Shown: in pieces, positions 40,835 to 49,097 of the stretch
Layout: each line of letters opens with the position of its first letter
How positions within the stretch are numbered: the first letter of the stretch is position 1
From: an uncultured Alphaproteobacteria bacterium
GTDB taxonomy: Bacteria; Pseudomonadota; Alphaproteobacteria; Rs-D84
DNA: 64,000 nt
Assembly: GCA_947175875.1 (NCBI GenBank)
Contig: CAMWON010000001.1
Location: 207,809 to 271,808, forward strand
Direction: 5' to 3'
Made by a program: the position numbers and the translations under genes
The notes under the pieces: generated by a model
What the model was told of the DNA's origin: nothing
The model's input: the letters and a program-made list of their open reading frames with translations, nothing else
Databases searched by the model: none

Positions 40835-41812
40835 CTATTCACGGGTTTCGCGACCCGGCTGCCATCCTTCGACGCGTCGTATCTCGCTTGCCACCCGGGC
40901 CAGTTGGGCGTCGCTTAAATTTCGCATCGGCGTATCCAATGAGGTGCCGACCGCCTGGGCGACGCGCTGTTGATATGCGGACGTGTTGTTCCCGTCGGAC
41001 GGTGGCGCCCATGCGCTGATTGCGCCGGCCAGTGTCTTGTTTTGATATGAATCCGTTTTCAGCAGTTTGATAATCGCGTCCATGCCGGTCTGTTCATCGG
41101 GGAAAACCGCAAAGTTCCCGGCCTGGCCAATGCCGCCCGCCCCCTGCGTAAATCGGCCCGGGCGAATGTTGCCAGGATTGTTGTTGCGCCATGCGCGCGT
41201 GCCGCGACTGCGCCGTTTTTGCGATTCATCGGTATATGTATAAACGACATCGTTCCCGGATGCGTGTGCCTTTACGGCGCGGTCGCCCGCATTCCCGGCC
41301 GGCGGCTGGGTGCTGTTGTCGGGCCCGCTTGGCGATTCCGGGGGCGTTGTTTCATTCTCGTTCGGTATTGTCGCGCCCGTGTCATAAATATCAAAATCTT
41401 CGTACAGGTCGTCCTGGTTCCATTTCGACAGTTTCGCATTTCTTGCCTCCAGCATCTGCTGCACATCTGCCATGGATACGTGGGCGGTCTTGCATCCGCG
41501 CGCAAACAGGTCGTCGCCGTATATCAGGTTAATAATTGGGCCGGCGGCCGACACGATTCCAAATATCAGCACCAGGTTTCGCATATTTGTGAATATGTCG
41601 TTTTTTGCGCCGCGAATCATGGATATCGCCCACCCGAACAGCAGCAACCCCGTCACGCACACCAATGCAATCCATGCGTATTCGGCGAACGTGGCAAAGC
41701 TGCGCAATACACAGGCCGGGTCTTCAAAAGAGATAATCTGGGCGCCGGGTGCATACTGGATATTCCGGAATCCGGCGTTTTCCAGCAGTCTAAGAATATG
41801 TTGCAGGTCCAT
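40835..41812 (-). CDS. Membrane protein with C-terminal 'NNPGN' lysozyme-like/virion-type domain
   Basis: 325 residues. Two membrane helices (about residues 40-62 and 76-100) are followed by a Pro/Ser-rich linker. The C-terminal ~125 residues contain GTRAWRNNNPGNIRPG and FAVFPDEQTGMDAIIKLL, the pattern of the PRD1 P5/phage structural-protein and transglycosylase-associated domain. A similar domain is in the protein at 43486. The N-terminal part resembles TrbC/VirB2-size membrane segments but is not diagnostic. Possibly a cell-wall-interacting component of a secretion or surface system. Confidence 0.6.
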   Translation of the reverse strand: MDLQHILRLLENAGFRNIQYAPGAQIISFEDPACVLRSFATFAEYAWIALVCVTGLLLFGWAISMIRGAKNDIFTNMRNLVLIFGIVSAAGPIINLIYGDDLFARGCKTAHVSMADVQQMLEARNAKLSKWNQDDLYEDFDIYDTGATIPNENETTPPESPSGPDNSTQPPAGNAGDRAVKAHASGNDVVYTYTDESQKRRSRGTRAWRNNNPGNIRPGRFTQGAGGIGQAGNFAVFPDEQTGMDAIIKLLKTDSYQNKTLAGAISAWAPPSDGNNTSAYQQRVAQAVGTSLDTPMRNLSDAQLARVASEIRRVEGWQPGRETRE

Positions 41813-43463: not shown

Positions 43464-43488
43464 AAAACGCCCGTTGGGCGTTTTTTTA
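43464..43488. terminator. Bidirectional intrinsic terminator
   Basis: ACGCCC / GGGCGT stem with a three-base loop between A- and T-runs. Confidence 0.85.
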
Positions 43489-44190
43489 CAGTGTGTTTTG
43501 TATACTGTCGTGCATCAGCTTTGTTTTGGTTGATGCCATCATGTTGTTGGCTGTGCTGTATTCAATTTTTCCTTCGCGCCAGCCTTCAATCGTGCAAATT
43601 GCATCAGCGACTTTGTTTACGCCCGCCGAATCCAAATCGCACAGTTTTTTGTTAAGCGTTAGACCGGTTAATTTGCTTAAACGCTTTTTATATGTAGCAA
43701 CATCGTTTTCGTGCGGTGGTGCATATTTTGTAATGGCGCGCTCTATGCTAAGATTTCTGTATTTGTCCGAACGCAGCAAATCCGCCAGTGCGTTTCGGCC
43801 TGTTTCATAGTCCGGAAATACCGCGAATTTGCCGCCTTTGCCGATTGCGCCTTTTTCGCGTGTGTATTTTCCGTATACCAGGCAACCCGGATTATTGTTG
43901 CGCCATGCGCGCGTGCCGCCACAGCGGCGAACTGTGTCGCCGGTGCTCATGACATACAGAACTTCCTTTTTATATTCCAGTGCCTCGACCGCATGCGGCA
44001 TCAGCTTGCTAAAATCTATCTCAATATCGGCCGTATCCTGCGGCAGCAAATAAGTACTGTCGATGCTGTACTTGGTGGAATCGTTGTCGTGTGAGTCATA
44101 TGGTTTTGCCGAAGTGTTGCTGGAATTCAGAAACATCCCCAGTGTCATCATGCCGCCCAACATGTATGGTAATGTAAATTTAGCTTTCAT
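43486..44190 (-). CDS. Exported protein with 'NNPG' lysozyme-like/virion-type domain
   Basis: 234 residues from ATG 44190. The N-terminal hydrophobic segment (residues 6-30) should be a signal peptide. Residues ~95-200 hold GTRAWRNNNPGCLVYGKY and FAVFPDYETGRNALADLL, paralogous to the domain at 40835. Probably periplasmic and cell-wall-related. It has a ~190-nt structured 5' leader that recurs in front of the gene at 44423, with the same CAAAGGGG ribosome-binding region. Confidence 0.65.
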   Translation of the reverse strand: MKAKFTLPYMLGGMMTLGMFLNSSNTSAKPYDSHDNDSTKYSIDSTYLLPQDTADIEIDFSKLMPHAVEALEYKKEVLYVMSTGDTVRRCGGTRAWRNNNPGCLVYGKYTREKGAIGKGGKFAVFPDYETGRNALADLLRSDKYRNLSIERAITKYAPPHENDVATYKKRLSKLTGLTLNKKLCDLDSAGVNKVADAICTIEGWREGKIEYSTANNMMASTKTKLMHDSIQNTL

Positions 44191-44378
44191 TTTTTTACCC
44201 CTTTGCAATCAAACAGGGCGCGCCAAAGCCCCGCGCGGTCACCTGTGTTATCGTTAATATTCTTTTTGATTGGTTCGGCGTGATGAAATGAATACTCTCG
44301 CCGTACATTCAAACATGGCGCGTCACGCCATGCCCCGACTTGCCCGTGTGGCAGCCCGCCCCGTTCCCGGGGAACCAA
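44191..44378 (-). ncRNA. Structured 5' leader, second RNA family, copy G
   Basis: Read on the minus strand it shares, in the same order, the blocks accttggttcccc, ggggcgggctgc, gcaagtcgggg, tgaatgtacg, cgaaccaatcaaaa and tttgattgcaaagggg with the leader at 45533-45741. Pairings: TTGGTTC with GAACCAA (P1), a CATGGCG/CGCCATG hairpin, GGCG with CGCC, and CAATCAAA with TTTGATTG next to the ribosome-binding site. The hairpins keep pairing between the two copies while their bases differ. It does not match any riboswitch I recognise. Confidence 0.65.
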
Positions 44379-44422
44379 GGTTTTTTGTGCGCGGCCGAAT
44401 ACGGCCGCGCTGGCCGCGCTTA

Positions 44423-45532
44423 TTAAGAGCGGCCGATTTGCAGCTGGTGCTGCATTGATATTTGCGGCGACATCTCCGGCGCGGCAAGCGCTTTTTGAAC
44501 GTCGTCGCCAAAGTATTTGGCGCGTACCAGGCGTATAAGGTCGCCGCGCGGCAACGCCAAAAGTTTTTCCACCGAAATCTGCGTTCCATCAGCGATGTAA
44601 TCAACCATCTGGTCGCGTGACATGGATTCCAGGCGTTTTAATTCTTTTGCATATTCTACCTGCAGAATTTGTTCAATGTCTGCACAGAATACGTTCGACA
44701 TGTCCCAGTTTTGAACAACGTCGCCGATACGTTCACGATTGTGTGCGGTGAACATGTATTTGCCGGTCGGGCCCGGAACAAATTCGCCGGCCTCGACGCG
44801 TCCCTCGCCCAGGAACATGATTGCGTGAAACTTGGTTTTAGAGCCGCGAAAACGCGGAACAATCATGATGGAACCCGGATTGACGTGCGCCAAAGAAAAG
44901 TTACGCTTGGCAAATTCGGCAATCGCCGCGTCGCGTTTGGCGGCCTCTGTGGAATCGGTAATTCCACGGCGTGCCAGGTGTCTTGCCAACTCTGCGCTGT
45001 ATGTGGAATCGGATTCAAATGCGCGACCCTCTTTGATGGCGTCGGTGTATTCCGGCTTGGTGTATTTGCGGCGCATCTGGTCCTTAAAGGCGATGCATGC
45101 GCTTTTGCCACCCTGTGGAATAACGGTCAACGTGTCGCCGTTTTCATTTAGCGCGCGCATTAACTGGGTGTACTGTCCATACATACAGTGCAGGCCCACC
45201 GGTGCCCCCGGCAGCTCTTTGCGCACCGCGGCGCGATATCCGCGTGTGCCGATTGTCGGGTTTAAGCGCTTCTGTGCGGCCAGCATGTTTTCGATATACA
45301 TGTCGCATGTGTTTTCCGCGCGTGCGGTCAAACGCGACTGTGTGATGGCGTACTGTCTGGCATAGTTAACCACCGACATGTTTTTTGCAAACAGCTCGTT
45401 CGGCACCTGCATTTCCAACTTTGGCTTTGGCAGGTTCGGTTCTTCTATTTTCTGGGCATTGGCAGAATTATTGCTAAACATGGTCGCAGACCCCATAATC
45501 AGGTAAGGAACCACTTTTTTATACAACTTCAT
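44423..45532 (-). CDS. Exported hypothetical protein
   Basis: 369 residues from ATG 45532 (caaagggg upstream). A signal peptide ends at NAQ/ANA. The mature protein has few cysteines and a C-terminal helical region after residue ~290. Patches such as VNPGSIMIVPRFRGSKTKFHAIMFLGEGR resemble beta-structured, possibly NlpC/P60-like (CHAP) substrate sites, with Cys in ENTCDMY and His in KFHAIMF, but the catalytic triad cannot be confirmed. Function not recognised. It has its own promoter and a long structured leader. Confidence 0.6.
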   Translation of the reverse strand: MKLYKKVVPYLIMGSATMFSNNSANAQKIEEPNLPKPKLEMQVPNELFAKNMSVVNYARQYAITQSRLTARAENTCDMYIENMLAAQKRLNPTIGTRGYRAAVRKELPGAPVGLHCMYGQYTQLMRALNENGDTLTVIPQGGKSACIAFKDQMRRKYTKPEYTDAIKEGRAFESDSTYSAELARHLARRGITDSTEAAKRDAAIAEFAKRNFSLAHVNPGSIMIVPRFRGSKTKFHAIMFLGEGRVEAGEFVPGPTGKYMFTAHNRERIGDVVQNWDMSNVFCADIEQILQVEYAKELKRLESMSRDQMVDYIADGTQISVEKLLALPRGDLIRLVRAKYFGDDVQKALAAPEMSPQISMQHQLQIGRS

Positions 45533-45741
45533 TTTATTCCCCTTTGCAATCAAACGGAATAATTGGCGCTGTGCCATTTAATCCATTTTTTATATTCGTT
45601 TTTTGTTTTGATTGGTTCGTCGCGATAAAAGAAGAAATTCGCAACGTACATTCAGATGTTTGTTTAACTCAAACACCCCGACTTGCTGTGCCGAAATTCG
45701 CGCACCCGCAGCCCGCCCCAAACGGGGAACCAAGGTTTTGT
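45533..45741 (-). ncRNA. Structured 5' leader, second RNA family, copy H
   Basis: Same block order as 44191-44378. Here the internal hairpins are TGTTTG/CAAACA and GTTGCGA/TCGCGAC (one G-U), against CATGGCG/CGCCATG and GGCG/CGCC in copy G, which is compensatory change. P1 (TTGGTTC with GAACCAA) and the CAATCAAA/TTTGATTG helix next to the ribosome-binding site are identical in the two copies. A promoter precedes it. Confidence 0.65.
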
Positions 45742-45747
45742 ATATAC

Positions 45748-45776
45748 AATATAGACAAAAAAGTTTTGTATTTCAA
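45748..45776 (-). promoter_or_regulatory. Promoter for leader H and the gene at 44423
   Basis: On the minus strand TTGAAA (45776-45771), 17-bp spacer, TATATT (45753-45748). Confidence 0.75.
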
Positions 45777-45831
45777 GTAAAAAATGACAGGAAAATAAAG
45801 AAAATTTGCAATTGGTAGGGGGCTTTGTTTG

Positions 45832-45914
45832 CTGGACCGCCACGCATACGCTCGCGGTGACAATGGAGCTGGGCTCGCTGTCATTGCGAGGGGCGGCAGC
45901 CCCGCGGCAATCCA
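45832..45914. repeat. MITE-like palindromic repeat, copy a
   Basis: An 83-bp unit with the core gtcattgcgag..cagccccgcggcaatcca. Nearly identical to 46296-46379 and sharing its right half with 45944-46026. No coding sequence. Such units built around gcaatcca/tggattgc occur in many bacterial genomes. Confidence 0.8.
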
Positions 45915-45943
45915 ACATGTAAAGCGGCGGTGGCATTTATCAA

Positions 45944-46026
45944 CTGGATTGCTTCACTTCGTTCGCAATGACAGTCGTGCTTGAATCGCTGTCATTGCGA
46001 GGGGCGGCAGCCCCGCGGCAATCCAG
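45944..46026. repeat. MITE-like palindromic repeat, copy b
   Basis: 83 bp with perfect 9-bp terminal inverted repeats (CTGGATTGC / GCAATCCAG) and an internal imperfect palindrome around ttcgcaatgaca and tgtcattgcgag. The left half differs from copies a and c. Confidence 0.85.
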
Positions 46027-46032
46027 TTTTAT

Positions 46033-46061
46033 TTGCTTTCCGAGATTTTTTAGGATATAGT
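46033..46061 (+). promoter_or_regulatory. Promoter of structured RNA copy B
   Basis: TTGCTT (46033-46038), 17-bp spacer, TATAGT (46056-46061). The same promoter stretch, right after a MITE copy, precedes copy C. Confidence 0.65.
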
Positions 46062-46066
46062 ACTTA

Positions 46067-46240
46067 CTGCAGCGTTGTGTTAGCGCTGCAAGGTTTAGCA
46101 ACCTTTTACACTCGGTCCGGAAGGACTTTAAACATTCACTCCACCCAAGGTTGGAGGGTCGCCAAATAAATTGAATAGGCGACACTATGAGTGTATAGAT
46201 TGCTAACCTCCAACCGCTTAAATTATTTAGTGGTTTATAA
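46067..46240 (+). ncRNA. Structured RNA of the repeated family, copy B
   Basis: Helix order as in copy A1. An initial GCAGCG/CGCTGC hairpin; P1 AAGG/CCTT with loop TTTAGCAA, pairing to TTGCTAA (46200-46206); P2 ACACTC with GAGTGT; a GTCC/GGAC hairpin then tttaaac; P4 CTCCACC with GGTTGGAG; P5 GTCGCC/GGCGAC closing aaataaattgaata. GGTTGGAGG (46149-46157) may instead pair with CCTCCAACC (46207-46215), which overlaps the AACCGCT/AGTGGTT terminal hairpin. No T-run follows, so termination here would be weaker. A CCCCGC/GCGGGG hairpin lies 30 bp further on. Confidence 0.75.
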
Positions 46241-46295
46241 CACCAATCACTATAAAAATGCATGTCTCCCCGCTTCGGCGGGGGTTGTCTTTTGG

Positions 46296-46379
46296 CTGGA
46301 CCGCCACGCATACGCTCGCGGTGACAATGGAGCTGGGCTCGCTGTCATTGCGAGGGGCGGCAGCCCCGCGGCAATCCAG
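46296..46379. repeat. MITE-like palindromic repeat, copy c
   Basis: Nearly identical to copy a at 45832. The ~40 bp to its right (ttttatttgctttc, then gattttttaggatatagtac) match those right of copy b, so the MITE and the adjacent promoter appear to have been duplicated together. Confidence 0.8.
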
Positions 46380-46385
46380 TTTTAT

Positions 46386-46414
46386 TTGCTTTCTGAGATT
46401 TTTTAGGATATAGT
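46386..46414 (+). promoter_or_regulatory. Promoter of structured RNA copy C
   Basis: TTGCTT, 17-bp spacer, TATAGT, identical to the promoter of copy B except for one base in the spacer. Confidence 0.65.
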
Positions 46415-46420
46415 ACTTAC

Positions 46421-46605
46421 TGCAACGGGGATTCCGTTGCCCGAGAATACAGACTCGGTCATTGGTTGCCTGCACAGGCGTAAAACTTTCAACCCTTATC
46501 GGGGTTGGGAGGTTGGCTGAATATATTGAATAGGCCAACACATACCAATGATGTGTCTGTAAGCTCCCGCCCCGGTCTTCTCAACAATGATTTTGGCGGT
46601 TGCAA
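46421..46605 (+). ncRNA. Structured RNA of the repeated family, copy C
   Basis: GCAACGG/CCGTTGC hairpin; P1 CCGAG/CTCGG with loop AATACAGA, pairing to TCTGTA (46556-46561); P2 CATTGGT/ACCAATG; GCCT/AGGC hairpin then taaaa; P4 CAACCC with GGGTTG; P5 TTGGC/GCCAA closing gaatatattgaata. GGGAG (46507-46511) can pair with CTCCC (46564-46568), which overlaps a CCGCC/GGCGG hairpin. The compensatory change from CTCCAACC to CTCCC with matching partner supports the long-range helix. The hairpin is followed by ttgcaatta, which is also the -35 region of copy D. Confidence 0.75.
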
Positions 46606-46627
46606 TTATAAATGTAGATGATACAAT
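46600..46627 (+). promoter_or_regulatory. Promoter of structured RNA copy D
   Basis: TTGCAA (46600-46605), 16-bp spacer, TACAAT (46622-46627). Confidence 0.65.
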
Positions 46628-46630
46628 ATA

Positions 46631-46817
46631 ATTGTAATGGGCATTGCCCCTGTTGCAAAAGTGCGAGCTAAAATCTCGCTTAGTAGAACCGCCTGTGCAG
46701 GCGTAAAATGCTCCACCACCCGCTGGTTGGAGTCGGCGAATATATTGAATAAGCCGGGATAAGTTCTACTATCATTTTAGCTCCAACCATCTTTCTTTAG
46801 ATGGTTTTTGTTTTTAT
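46631..46817 (+). ncRNA. Structured RNA of the repeated family, copy D (leader of the small protein at 46835)
   Basis: GGGC/GCCC hairpin; P1 GCGAG/CTCGC with loop CTAAAAT, pairing to ATTTTAG (46774-46780); P2 AGTAGAAC/GTTCTACT; CGCCT/AGGCG hairpin then taaaa; P4 CTCCACC with GGTTGGAG; P5 CGGC/GCCG closing gaatatattgaata. GGTTGGAG (46725-46732) can also pair with CTCCAACC (46781-46788), whose AACC is part of the terminator AACCATC/GATGGTT followed by a T-rich run. It ends 18 bp before the small gene. Confidence 0.78.
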
Positions 46818-46834
46818 CAAACCGGGGGCTTGCT

Positions 46835-47071
46835 ATGGCAAAAAACACTGATAACACCAATATGCTGGCGGAAAATGAATATCCGTCTGCGCTGATATAT
46901 AAACTCTGTGAATTTTATAACAAGTATCCCGATTATAAAACCGGGATTATGGATATTTCCATTCTGGCGCGGATTGTGCATACCGAACTGGAAAAATTTA
47001 CGCGTCGCCCGCACAAACAGGTGACCGAGGTGTTTTTCGACCGCGAGCCGCCAACCGCCCGCTTCGTTTAA
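46835..47071 (+). CDS. Small conserved protein following the structured-RNA array
   Basis: 78 residues from ATG 46835 (ggggg upstream). Paralogue of the 92-residue protein at 17473: LIYKLCEFYNKYPDYKTG, LARIVHTELEKF and RRPHKQVTEVFFD align without gaps. The N-terminal ~20 residues are not conserved. Probably a small helical cytoplasmic protein with a basic patch (RRPHKQ). Function unknown; it follows three tandem structured RNAs, just as the paralogue follows two. Confidence 0.75.
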   Translation: MAKNTDNTNMLAENEYPSALIYKLCEFYNKYPDYKTGIMDISILARIVHTELEKFTRRPHKQVTEVFFDREPPTARFV

Positions 47072-48137: not shown

Positions 48138-49097
48138 ATGGCTAATGTTGTGCTGGATTCTTTACTGCGCCCGCTGGAGGAGTTTTATAAACCCTCGTTC
48201 GTGGAAGAAATCGCAATCAATCACGCGGGCGAGGTCTGGATGCGCCTGCACGGCGCGCGCGTTCCGTGGGTTGCATACCAGGCCGAGAATTTAAGCAAAC
48301 AATACCTTATCGACTTAATCCATACCGTCGCCAATATTTACGAGCGGCCCTTTGACCCGACGCACGGCGTGCCGGTCGTATATGCGACGTTGCCCGGCAA
48401 TCATCGTTTTTCAGCCATTGCGGGCCCGAATGTTCAATATGATGAAAATGATGTCACGGGTGGTGTCGCGATGAATATCCGCGGTGGAAACGCCCCGGAC
48501 ACCAGTTTTGAGAATTATCATCTGAAACGTGGCGAGGATTTGTTAAAGGTAAAGCCCCGCGATAACGTCCGTCCCGACGACCCGTACGACAGATTGATGC
48601 AGGCCATAAACGACGGCAGTCCCATTTTAATCAGTGGCGCGACCGCAACCGGAAAAACGACGTTCTTGAACCATATGTTAAAGTTAATCGACCAAAACAG
48701 CCGTGTCATTACCGTCGAAGATGCCCGCGAAATCCGCGTGCCCCAGGCGAACCGGGTGCACTTCGTTTTGTCGCGTACGGAACAGAATAATGATTTTAAT
48801 TATGCGCGCCTGTTGGATTTGGTGGTGCGTATGACGCCCGACGTCATTATCGGCGGGGAAATATCAACCGATAATGCATCCGTCCTGTGGGAAATGCTGG
48901 GGACGGGTCACGACCACTTTTATACGACCATTCACGCCGAAAGTGCCGAGGCTGCATACGCCGCGTTCGCGGACCGTATCCTGCATACTCAGCCGGCGTA
49001 TAACCGCACTGAACTGATTACGGAAATGAGAAAGAAAATCCGCGTCGTGCAATTATCGCGTGACGGCGCCCTGCGCGCCGTGACCGAGGTTGTATAG
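48138..49097 (+). CDS. virB11: VirB11/TrbB-type traffic ATPase
   Basis: 319 residues. C-terminal RecA-like ATPase domain: Walker A GATATGKTT, Asp-box VEDAREI, Walker B region PDVIIGGEI, and His-box TTIHAES, in the order of VirB11 family enzymes. The N-terminal domain of ~135 residues is consistent in size. It would power a type IV secretion or DNA-transfer system at the inner membrane. No other unmistakable T4SS genes are adjacent, so it is an orphan here. Confidence 0.85.
   Translation: MANVVLDSLLRPLEEFYKPSFVEEIAINHAGEVWMRLHGARVPWVAYQAENLSKQYLIDLIHTVANIYERPFDPTHGVPVVYATLPGNHRFSAIAGPNVQYDENDVTGGVAMNIRGGNAPDTSFENYHLKRGEDLLKVKPRDNVRPDDPYDRLMQAINDGSPILISGATATGKTTFLNHMLKLIDQNSRVITVEDAREIRVPQANRVHFVLSRTEQNNDFNYARLLDLVVRMTPDVIIGGEISTDNASVLWEMLGTGHDHFYTTIHAESAEAAYAAFADRILHTQPAYNRTELITEMRKKIRVVQLSRDGALRAVTEVV

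Follow-up and report, generated by a model that had tools for sequence, protein, structure and literature searches.

Translational riboswitches with multi-branched aptamers have a multi-helix core closed by P1, and one strand of P1 as well as the Shine-Dalgarno (SD) sequence are contested by the region downstream. The c-di-AMP riboswitches of the ydaO type control nlpC and rpf genes elsewhere, and at C. glutamicum nlpC c-di-AMP acts through such a switch as a repressor, reportedly at the level of translation (PMC9960051). Members of the order Rs-D84, gut bacteria with reduced genomes, are presumed to live as symbionts or parasites (PMC12306168). Two leader RNAs from a genome of this order were analysed in a 64,000-nucleotide stretch of DNA (the window), leader a upstream of gene 43486 (gene A) and leader b upstream of gene 44423 (gene B). 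They represent a genuine, undescribed class of structured leader RNA with riboswitch-like anatomy. On balance, we favour the view that they belong to a so far undescribed family of cis-regulatory RNAs in Candidatus Enterousia and its close relatives, most likely a riboswitch-type switch that turns translation ON.

The preliminary description had pointed to six blocks (TTGGTTCCCC, GGGGCGGGCTGC, GCAAGTCGGGG, TGAATGTACG, CGAACCAATCAAA and TTTGATTGCAAAGGGG) present in the same order in both leaders, and the leaders could indeed be aligned over their full length. The covarying hairpins that it mentioned are those of P4, formed by CATGGCG/CGCCATG in one leader and by TGTTTG/CAAACA in the other. Leaders b and a scored 112.6 bits (E 1.1e-25) and 106.3 bits (E 4.6e-24), respectively, in a search of their own genome with the covariance model CM R1, which was built from 22 copies including these two. 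A third genomic copy of GCAAGTCGGGG, on C7, lies outside any leader of the family and was rejected. The positions of the features are collected in Table 1.

Table 1 Leaders a and b, their helices and the adjoining genes (window positions)
Feature	Position	Strand	Remarks
Leader b, sigma-70-type promoter	45748..45776	-	TTGAAA 45776-45771, 17-nt spacer, TATATT 45753-45748
Palindrome TGTATATACA	45739..45748	.	overlaps -10/start region; exact copy in window
Leader RNA b, five-way-junction domain	45607..45736	-	upstream of gene 44423
Leader b P1	45733-45728/45617-45612	-	
Leader b P2	45727-45724/45719-45716	-	
Leader b P3	45713-45707/45687-45680	-	
Leader b P4	45678-45671/45661-45654	-	
Leader b joining strand GAAUGUA	45653-45647	-	
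Leader b P5	45646-45639/45625-45618	-	
Leader b P7	45547..45614	-	CAATCAAA 45614-45607 with TTTGATTG 45554-45547
Gene 44423, ribosome-binding site and start codon	45530..45546	-	CAAAGGGG 45546-45539, ATG 45532-45530; sequence
Gene B	44423..45532	-	369-aa exported protein, signal-peptide-like N-terminus MKLYKKVVPYLIMGSATMFSNNSANAQ
Leader RNA a, five-way-junction domain	44265..44381	-	upstream of gene 43486
Leader a P1	44378-44373/44275-44270	-	
Leader a P2	44372-44369/44362-44359	-	
Leader a P3	44356-44350/44344-44337	-	
Leader a P4	44335-44328/44318-44311	-	
Leader a joining strand GAAUGUA	44310-44304	-	
Leader a P5	44303-44296/44283-44276	-	
Leader a P7	44206..44272	-	CAATCAAA 44272-44265 with TTTGATTG 44213-44206
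Gene 43486, ribosome-binding site and start codon	44188..44205	-	CAAAGGGG 44205-44198, ATG 44190-44188; sequence
Gene A	43486..44190	-	234-aa exported protein, signal-peptide-like MKAKFTLPYMLGGMMTLGMF...

The RNA family forms a five-way junction of helices P1-P5. In 85 copies aligned to the covariance model, an alignment that is therefore biased toward the model structure, standard pairs were kept in 96.5 % of 2778 pair cells, and two-sided changes occupied 342 cells, in comparison to 104 +/- 10 in shuffled data, and hit 18 of the 33 pairs. When the partner column was slid by 1-3 positions, pairing dropped to 29-47 %. The same junction was obtained with RNAalifold, with no structure supplied, from an independent MAFFT alignment of 13 sequences. 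Pairing has thus not been lost in the homologues, and the compensatory changes expected of a riboswitch class are present in this 5'-leader domain. Together with the covariance-model E-values, the two-sided changes rule out a chance origin of the likeness between the leaders. In isolated domains the minimum free energy fold equalled the consensus junction in four members, leader b and one divergent member among them, with energies modestly lower than those of shuffled sequences (z -1.7 to -2.1).

P1 is built of UUGGUU/AACCAA, P2 of CCCY..RGGG, frequently with a GNRA loop, and P3 of GGCUGY/RCA-A-GUC with a bulged A, and P4 opens with GGG/UYU and is variable beyond. Since P1 and P2 are nearly invariant, covariation is a poor test of both. 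The GAACCAA/TTGGTTC pairing proposed earlier is possible, but in the homologues the first G belongs to P5, whose first pair changes from C-G to U-A in 10 sequences, and P1 was therefore cut to 6 bp. The joining strand GAAUGUA is invariant in 85/85 copies while the hairpins vary, and it probably constitutes the recognition core of the junction.

At the gathering threshold no family among the 4227 in Rfam matched the leaders in the window, and RF00379 was matched neither by the region 44150-46850 at E<=5 nor by six divergent loci at E<=1; in these Rfam searches only chance matches and tRNAs came up. The covariance-model and Rfam searches thus connected the leaders with no known riboswitch. Searches of the open-access literature on this group of organisms and on orphan riboswitches yielded no report of such an RNA.

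What had been presented as a family in two copies is a structured leader family, but one not limited to two, as it occurs in about half of the genus with one or two copies per genome. A first pattern search of 59 related genomes detected the core in 9, every one of the same genus, and gave 0 hits in reversed controls. With the covariance model the RNA was found in 48 of 92 Candidatus Enterousia genomes (weakest match 1.5e-13), in 77 of 190 genomes at the order level, where two sister genera within the family also carry it, and at the family level in 78 of 183 genomes and 3 of 13 genera. The model had no match in a 385-genome sample of the class apart from members of the genus, and no match to the RNA was found among IMG/VR viral contigs. 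An exact-pattern scan of 84,980 species returned 68 stretches. Their sources were without exception MAGs with the title Alphaproteobacteria, proteobacterium, Pseudomonadota or bacterium; many were of gut or rumen origin and four were named Candidatus Enterousia.

All 57 model matches in the genus lie directly upstream of gene A (34) or gene B (23), and the RNA precedes 23/23 B genes and 34 of the 36 full-length A genes, a near-perfect association that makes ligand discovery tractable. Near the two leaderless A genes (G109 and G066) no convincing model match was present, the best ones reaching 13.6 and 8.1 bits. In sister genera the RNA precedes an apparent distant relative of B (L073, read from sequence) and also a 63-aa single-helix protein (L074). 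Protein B has invariant Cys116, His236 and Asn265 (alignment A6) and a predicted papain-like fold of the NlpC/P60-CHAP type (AlphaFold pLDDT 81.5). Its best VIA matches were NlpC/P60 peptidases, Tae1/Tse1 amidases and CHAP endolysins with middling Z values of 7-9.3, Foldseek alone gave nothing significant for it, and the modelled fold makes an enzyme of the NlpC/P60-type class likely. The C-terminal domain of protein A is related to the catalytic domain of the phage Enc34 endolysin (PHROG endolysin 7.3e-18; PDB 7q47 profile E 1e-7, Foldseek E 6.7e-6), and the signal-peptide-like start MKxKxxxPYLLxG is common to A and B. The earlier claim that both genes encode exported proteins acting on the envelope was borne out by alignment, profile and fold matches, which place them in two peptidoglycan-hydrolase-like families. 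At 40835-41812 on the - strand lies the gene of a membrane-anchored protein that shares the endolysin-like domain of gene A but has no leader RNA; it is conserved in the genus even where the RNA is absent, and its neighbours in a syntenic block are holA-like, map-like and radC-like genes.

For leader b the predicted transcription start is near 45741, which would make the 5' strand of P1 the first part of the RNA. A sigma-70 promoter was recognized in 73 of 82 leaders and, since the median distance from the end of its -10 motif to the model match is 11 nt, these transcripts would start at P1 as well. The 9 leaders without promoter all belong to second genes of tandem pairs, gene 43486 among them, and no -35/-10 of its own was found for leader a. 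GTATATAC precedes 39 of the 82 leaders, and TGTATATACAA occurs in two places only in the 953-kb genome. The palindrome TGTATATACA, rare in the genome, has two further copies, arranged in tandem, ahead of a dnaA-like gene (G000 C2:161782-161792, L196) and is possibly an operator shared by the leader promoter and this gene. The neighbourhood contains three copies of another repeated, structured-looking element with ggttggagggtcg and aataaattgaatagg blocks (46060-46800, + strand), which apparently corresponds to the first family of the preliminary description and adjoins TGTCATTGCGAGGGGCGGCAGCCCCGCGGCAATCCAG repeats at about 45880, 45990 and 46340. A putative VirB11-like ATPase, by sequence reading, is encoded at 48138-49097 on the + strand and hints at a type IV secretion system close by.

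The support for a switch at the SD in these leaders is computational. The predicted unpaired proportion of the SD rose from 0.05 in the free fold to 0.69 with the junction formed for gene 44423, and from 0.39 to 0.64 for gene 43486. For comparison, the same junction was joined to the downstream parts of other genes with SDs of matched strength. In the free fold the mean probability of pairing between the SD and the 5' strand of P1-P2 was 0.38 in native leaders versus 0.16 in these swaps. Enforcing the junction in silico increased SD accessibility by 0.23 and 0.07, respectively, an excess rather than proof, as any enforced junction tends to free the SD. The gain was observed in 70 of 80 native leaders (Wilcoxon 5e-8, a value that overstates the evidence because the copies are related and not independent). 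Plain duplex energies of UUGGUUCCC with the ribosome-binding site were not significantly better than those with the ribosome-binding sites of other genes (p 0.08-0.19), and the case for the switch therefore rests on the whole-leader ensembles.

The CAATCAAA/TTTGATTG helix noted earlier, here called P7, can form at the positions given for it and has CAA in common with the P1 strand. In leader b it encloses an A-rich linker and a variable hairpin, and its 5' strand overlaps the 3' strand of P1. P7 is found in 57 of 82 leaders, 46 of which have all 8 bp, and is absent in 25; it is paired in 443 of 456 cells and nearly invariant, with hardly any compensatory variation. The competition between P1 and P7 is thus predicted for most leaders, in which TTTGATTG can capture the 3' strand of P1 (57/82), but it is not general. 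In one subgroup AACCAA, a copy of the P1 3' strand, adjoins the SD, and in a divergent subgroup the SD pairs directly with UUCCC. The more general competition across the subgroups would set the folding of P1/P2 against the pairing of UUGGUUCCC with the SD. Control at translation, suggested in the preliminary description, is favoured by the in silico folding tests and by the nine promoterless leaders inside operons, which would provide a second switch within one transcript. Transcription attenuation was disfavoured because of these promoterless second copies, and also because inspection by eye of the stretch from the junction to the ribosome-binding site revealed no hairpin with a U-run behind it.

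The proposed mechanism would operate as follows. Transcription would start at P1 and the RNA could fold into the five-way junction with its GAAUGUA core. If the junction is held by a ligand or other partner, UUGGUUCCC would be consumed in P1/P2 and the ribosome-binding site would be free; if not, UUGGUUCCC would pair with the purine-rich ribosome-binding site and in most members TTTGATTG would additionally capture the P1 3' strand. As a result, one or two exported peptidoglycan hydrolases would be made, the NlpC/P60-CHAP-like B and the endolysin-like A. We infer both the existence of a ligand and the direction of the switch (folded = ON).

The direction could also be the reverse, with the junction as the OFF state and a ligand that represses translation. 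The known ydaO switch on nlpC does repress (PMC9960051), and P7, placed directly beside the SD, could hinder ribosome loading, but the freeing of the SD by junction formation in 70 of the 80 leaders in ensemble folding makes this distinctly unlikely. Alternatively, a protein might bind the junction and repress or activate translation, as in ribosomal-protein leaders, which would suit the large conserved core and the strict confinement of the RNA to a single bacterial family and to two families of genes. Simple autoregulation is improbable, since no RNA-binding domain was recognised in the exported hydrolases under control; a dedicated regulator would be needed and none is linked, so that protein binding appears unlikely overall.

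Readings that dispense with a partner have to account for the same features. The 73 of 82 copies beginning with P1 at the predicted 5' end might be taken for a ligand-free terminal structure that protects the mRNA, sets translation constitutively or acts as a thermometer. Thermometers, however, seldom conserve a multi-branch junction, nine copies lie inside operons, and the invariance of GAAUGUA and the P3 core exceeds the needs of a stabilising stem, which leaves this reading only a slim chance. It is very improbable that the leaders are mere passengers of spreading leader-hydrolase cassettes, kept by recent descent and not by function: patchy presence (48/92 genomes) beside a syntenic block would agree with it, but compensatory changes at strong sequence divergence and an invariant core require selection, and IMG/VR gave no match. 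The riboswitch-type ON switch remains the preferred explanation.

With regard to the trigger of such a switch, the c-di-AMP synthase domain DAC was encoded by 16 of 25 genomes of the genus, mostly as part of full-length proteins of the CdaA type, and was distributed over 12 of 13 RNA-positive versus 4 of 12 RNA-negative genomes (Fisher 0.004, 25 genomes). The counterexamples are G018, RNA-positive and 96 % complete but without DAC, and the four RNA-negative genomes with DAC. In a three-gene tree the sisters G007/G012 and G002/G019 each differ in both RNA and DAC, the latter pair being weakened by the completeness of G019 (only 74 %, against 97 % for G012). The genome of the window itself has a DAC domain (E 1.6e-39) with DGA and RHR motifs, a record of gene presence only. 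A CdaA-type c-di-AMP synthase of an alphaproteobacterium is encoded at G000 C5:11302-11652 (L197). GGDEF was found in 0 of 25 genus genomes, with 8 of 14 controls positive, and c-di-GMP was disfavoured as the ligand for this reason. The co-occurrence with DAC and the ydaO control of nlpC and rpf elsewhere make c-di-AMP a testable lead and, by gene content and analogy, the leading though tentative guess for the ligand. The leaders might even form a second, structurally unrelated c-di-AMP riboswitch class that evolved in reduced-genome Alphaproteobacteria. As ydaO does in Actinobacteria, it would control a peptidase of the NlpC/P60 type and an enzyme resembling lysozyme, here by means of a five-way junction that exposes the ribosome-binding site; this reading is conceivable but rather unlikely.

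A previously unlisted class of structured RNA is well supported, and it would reveal by what means gut bacteria with reduced genomes, which presumably depend on partners, control when their wall-cutting enzymes are released. With c-di-AMP as the ligand, RNA control of wall hydrolases by this nucleotide would have arisen twice, from RNAs unrelated to each other, and Alphaproteobacteria would possess active c-di-AMP signalling. Like the autoregulatory leaders of ribosomal proteins, the RNA is a structured leader tied to narrow gene families, but its targets are hydrolase-like exported proteins and not RNA-binding ones. It shares with multi-branched translational riboswitches the P1-closed multi-helix core and, by prediction, the downstream competitor for the P1 strand and the SD, and differs from them in the lack of an Rfam match and in gene context. 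The ydaO/kimA leaders (RF00379) of C. glutamicum nlpC and Streptomyces rpfA likewise precede NlpC/P60-type and lysozyme-like exported wall enzymes, and action on translation, reported for C. glutamicum (PMC9960051), is predicted here. Unlike ydaO, the Enterousia RNA has five helices closed by P1, an invariant GAAUGUA and no RF00379 match, belongs to a different phylum and is predicted to work in the ON direction.
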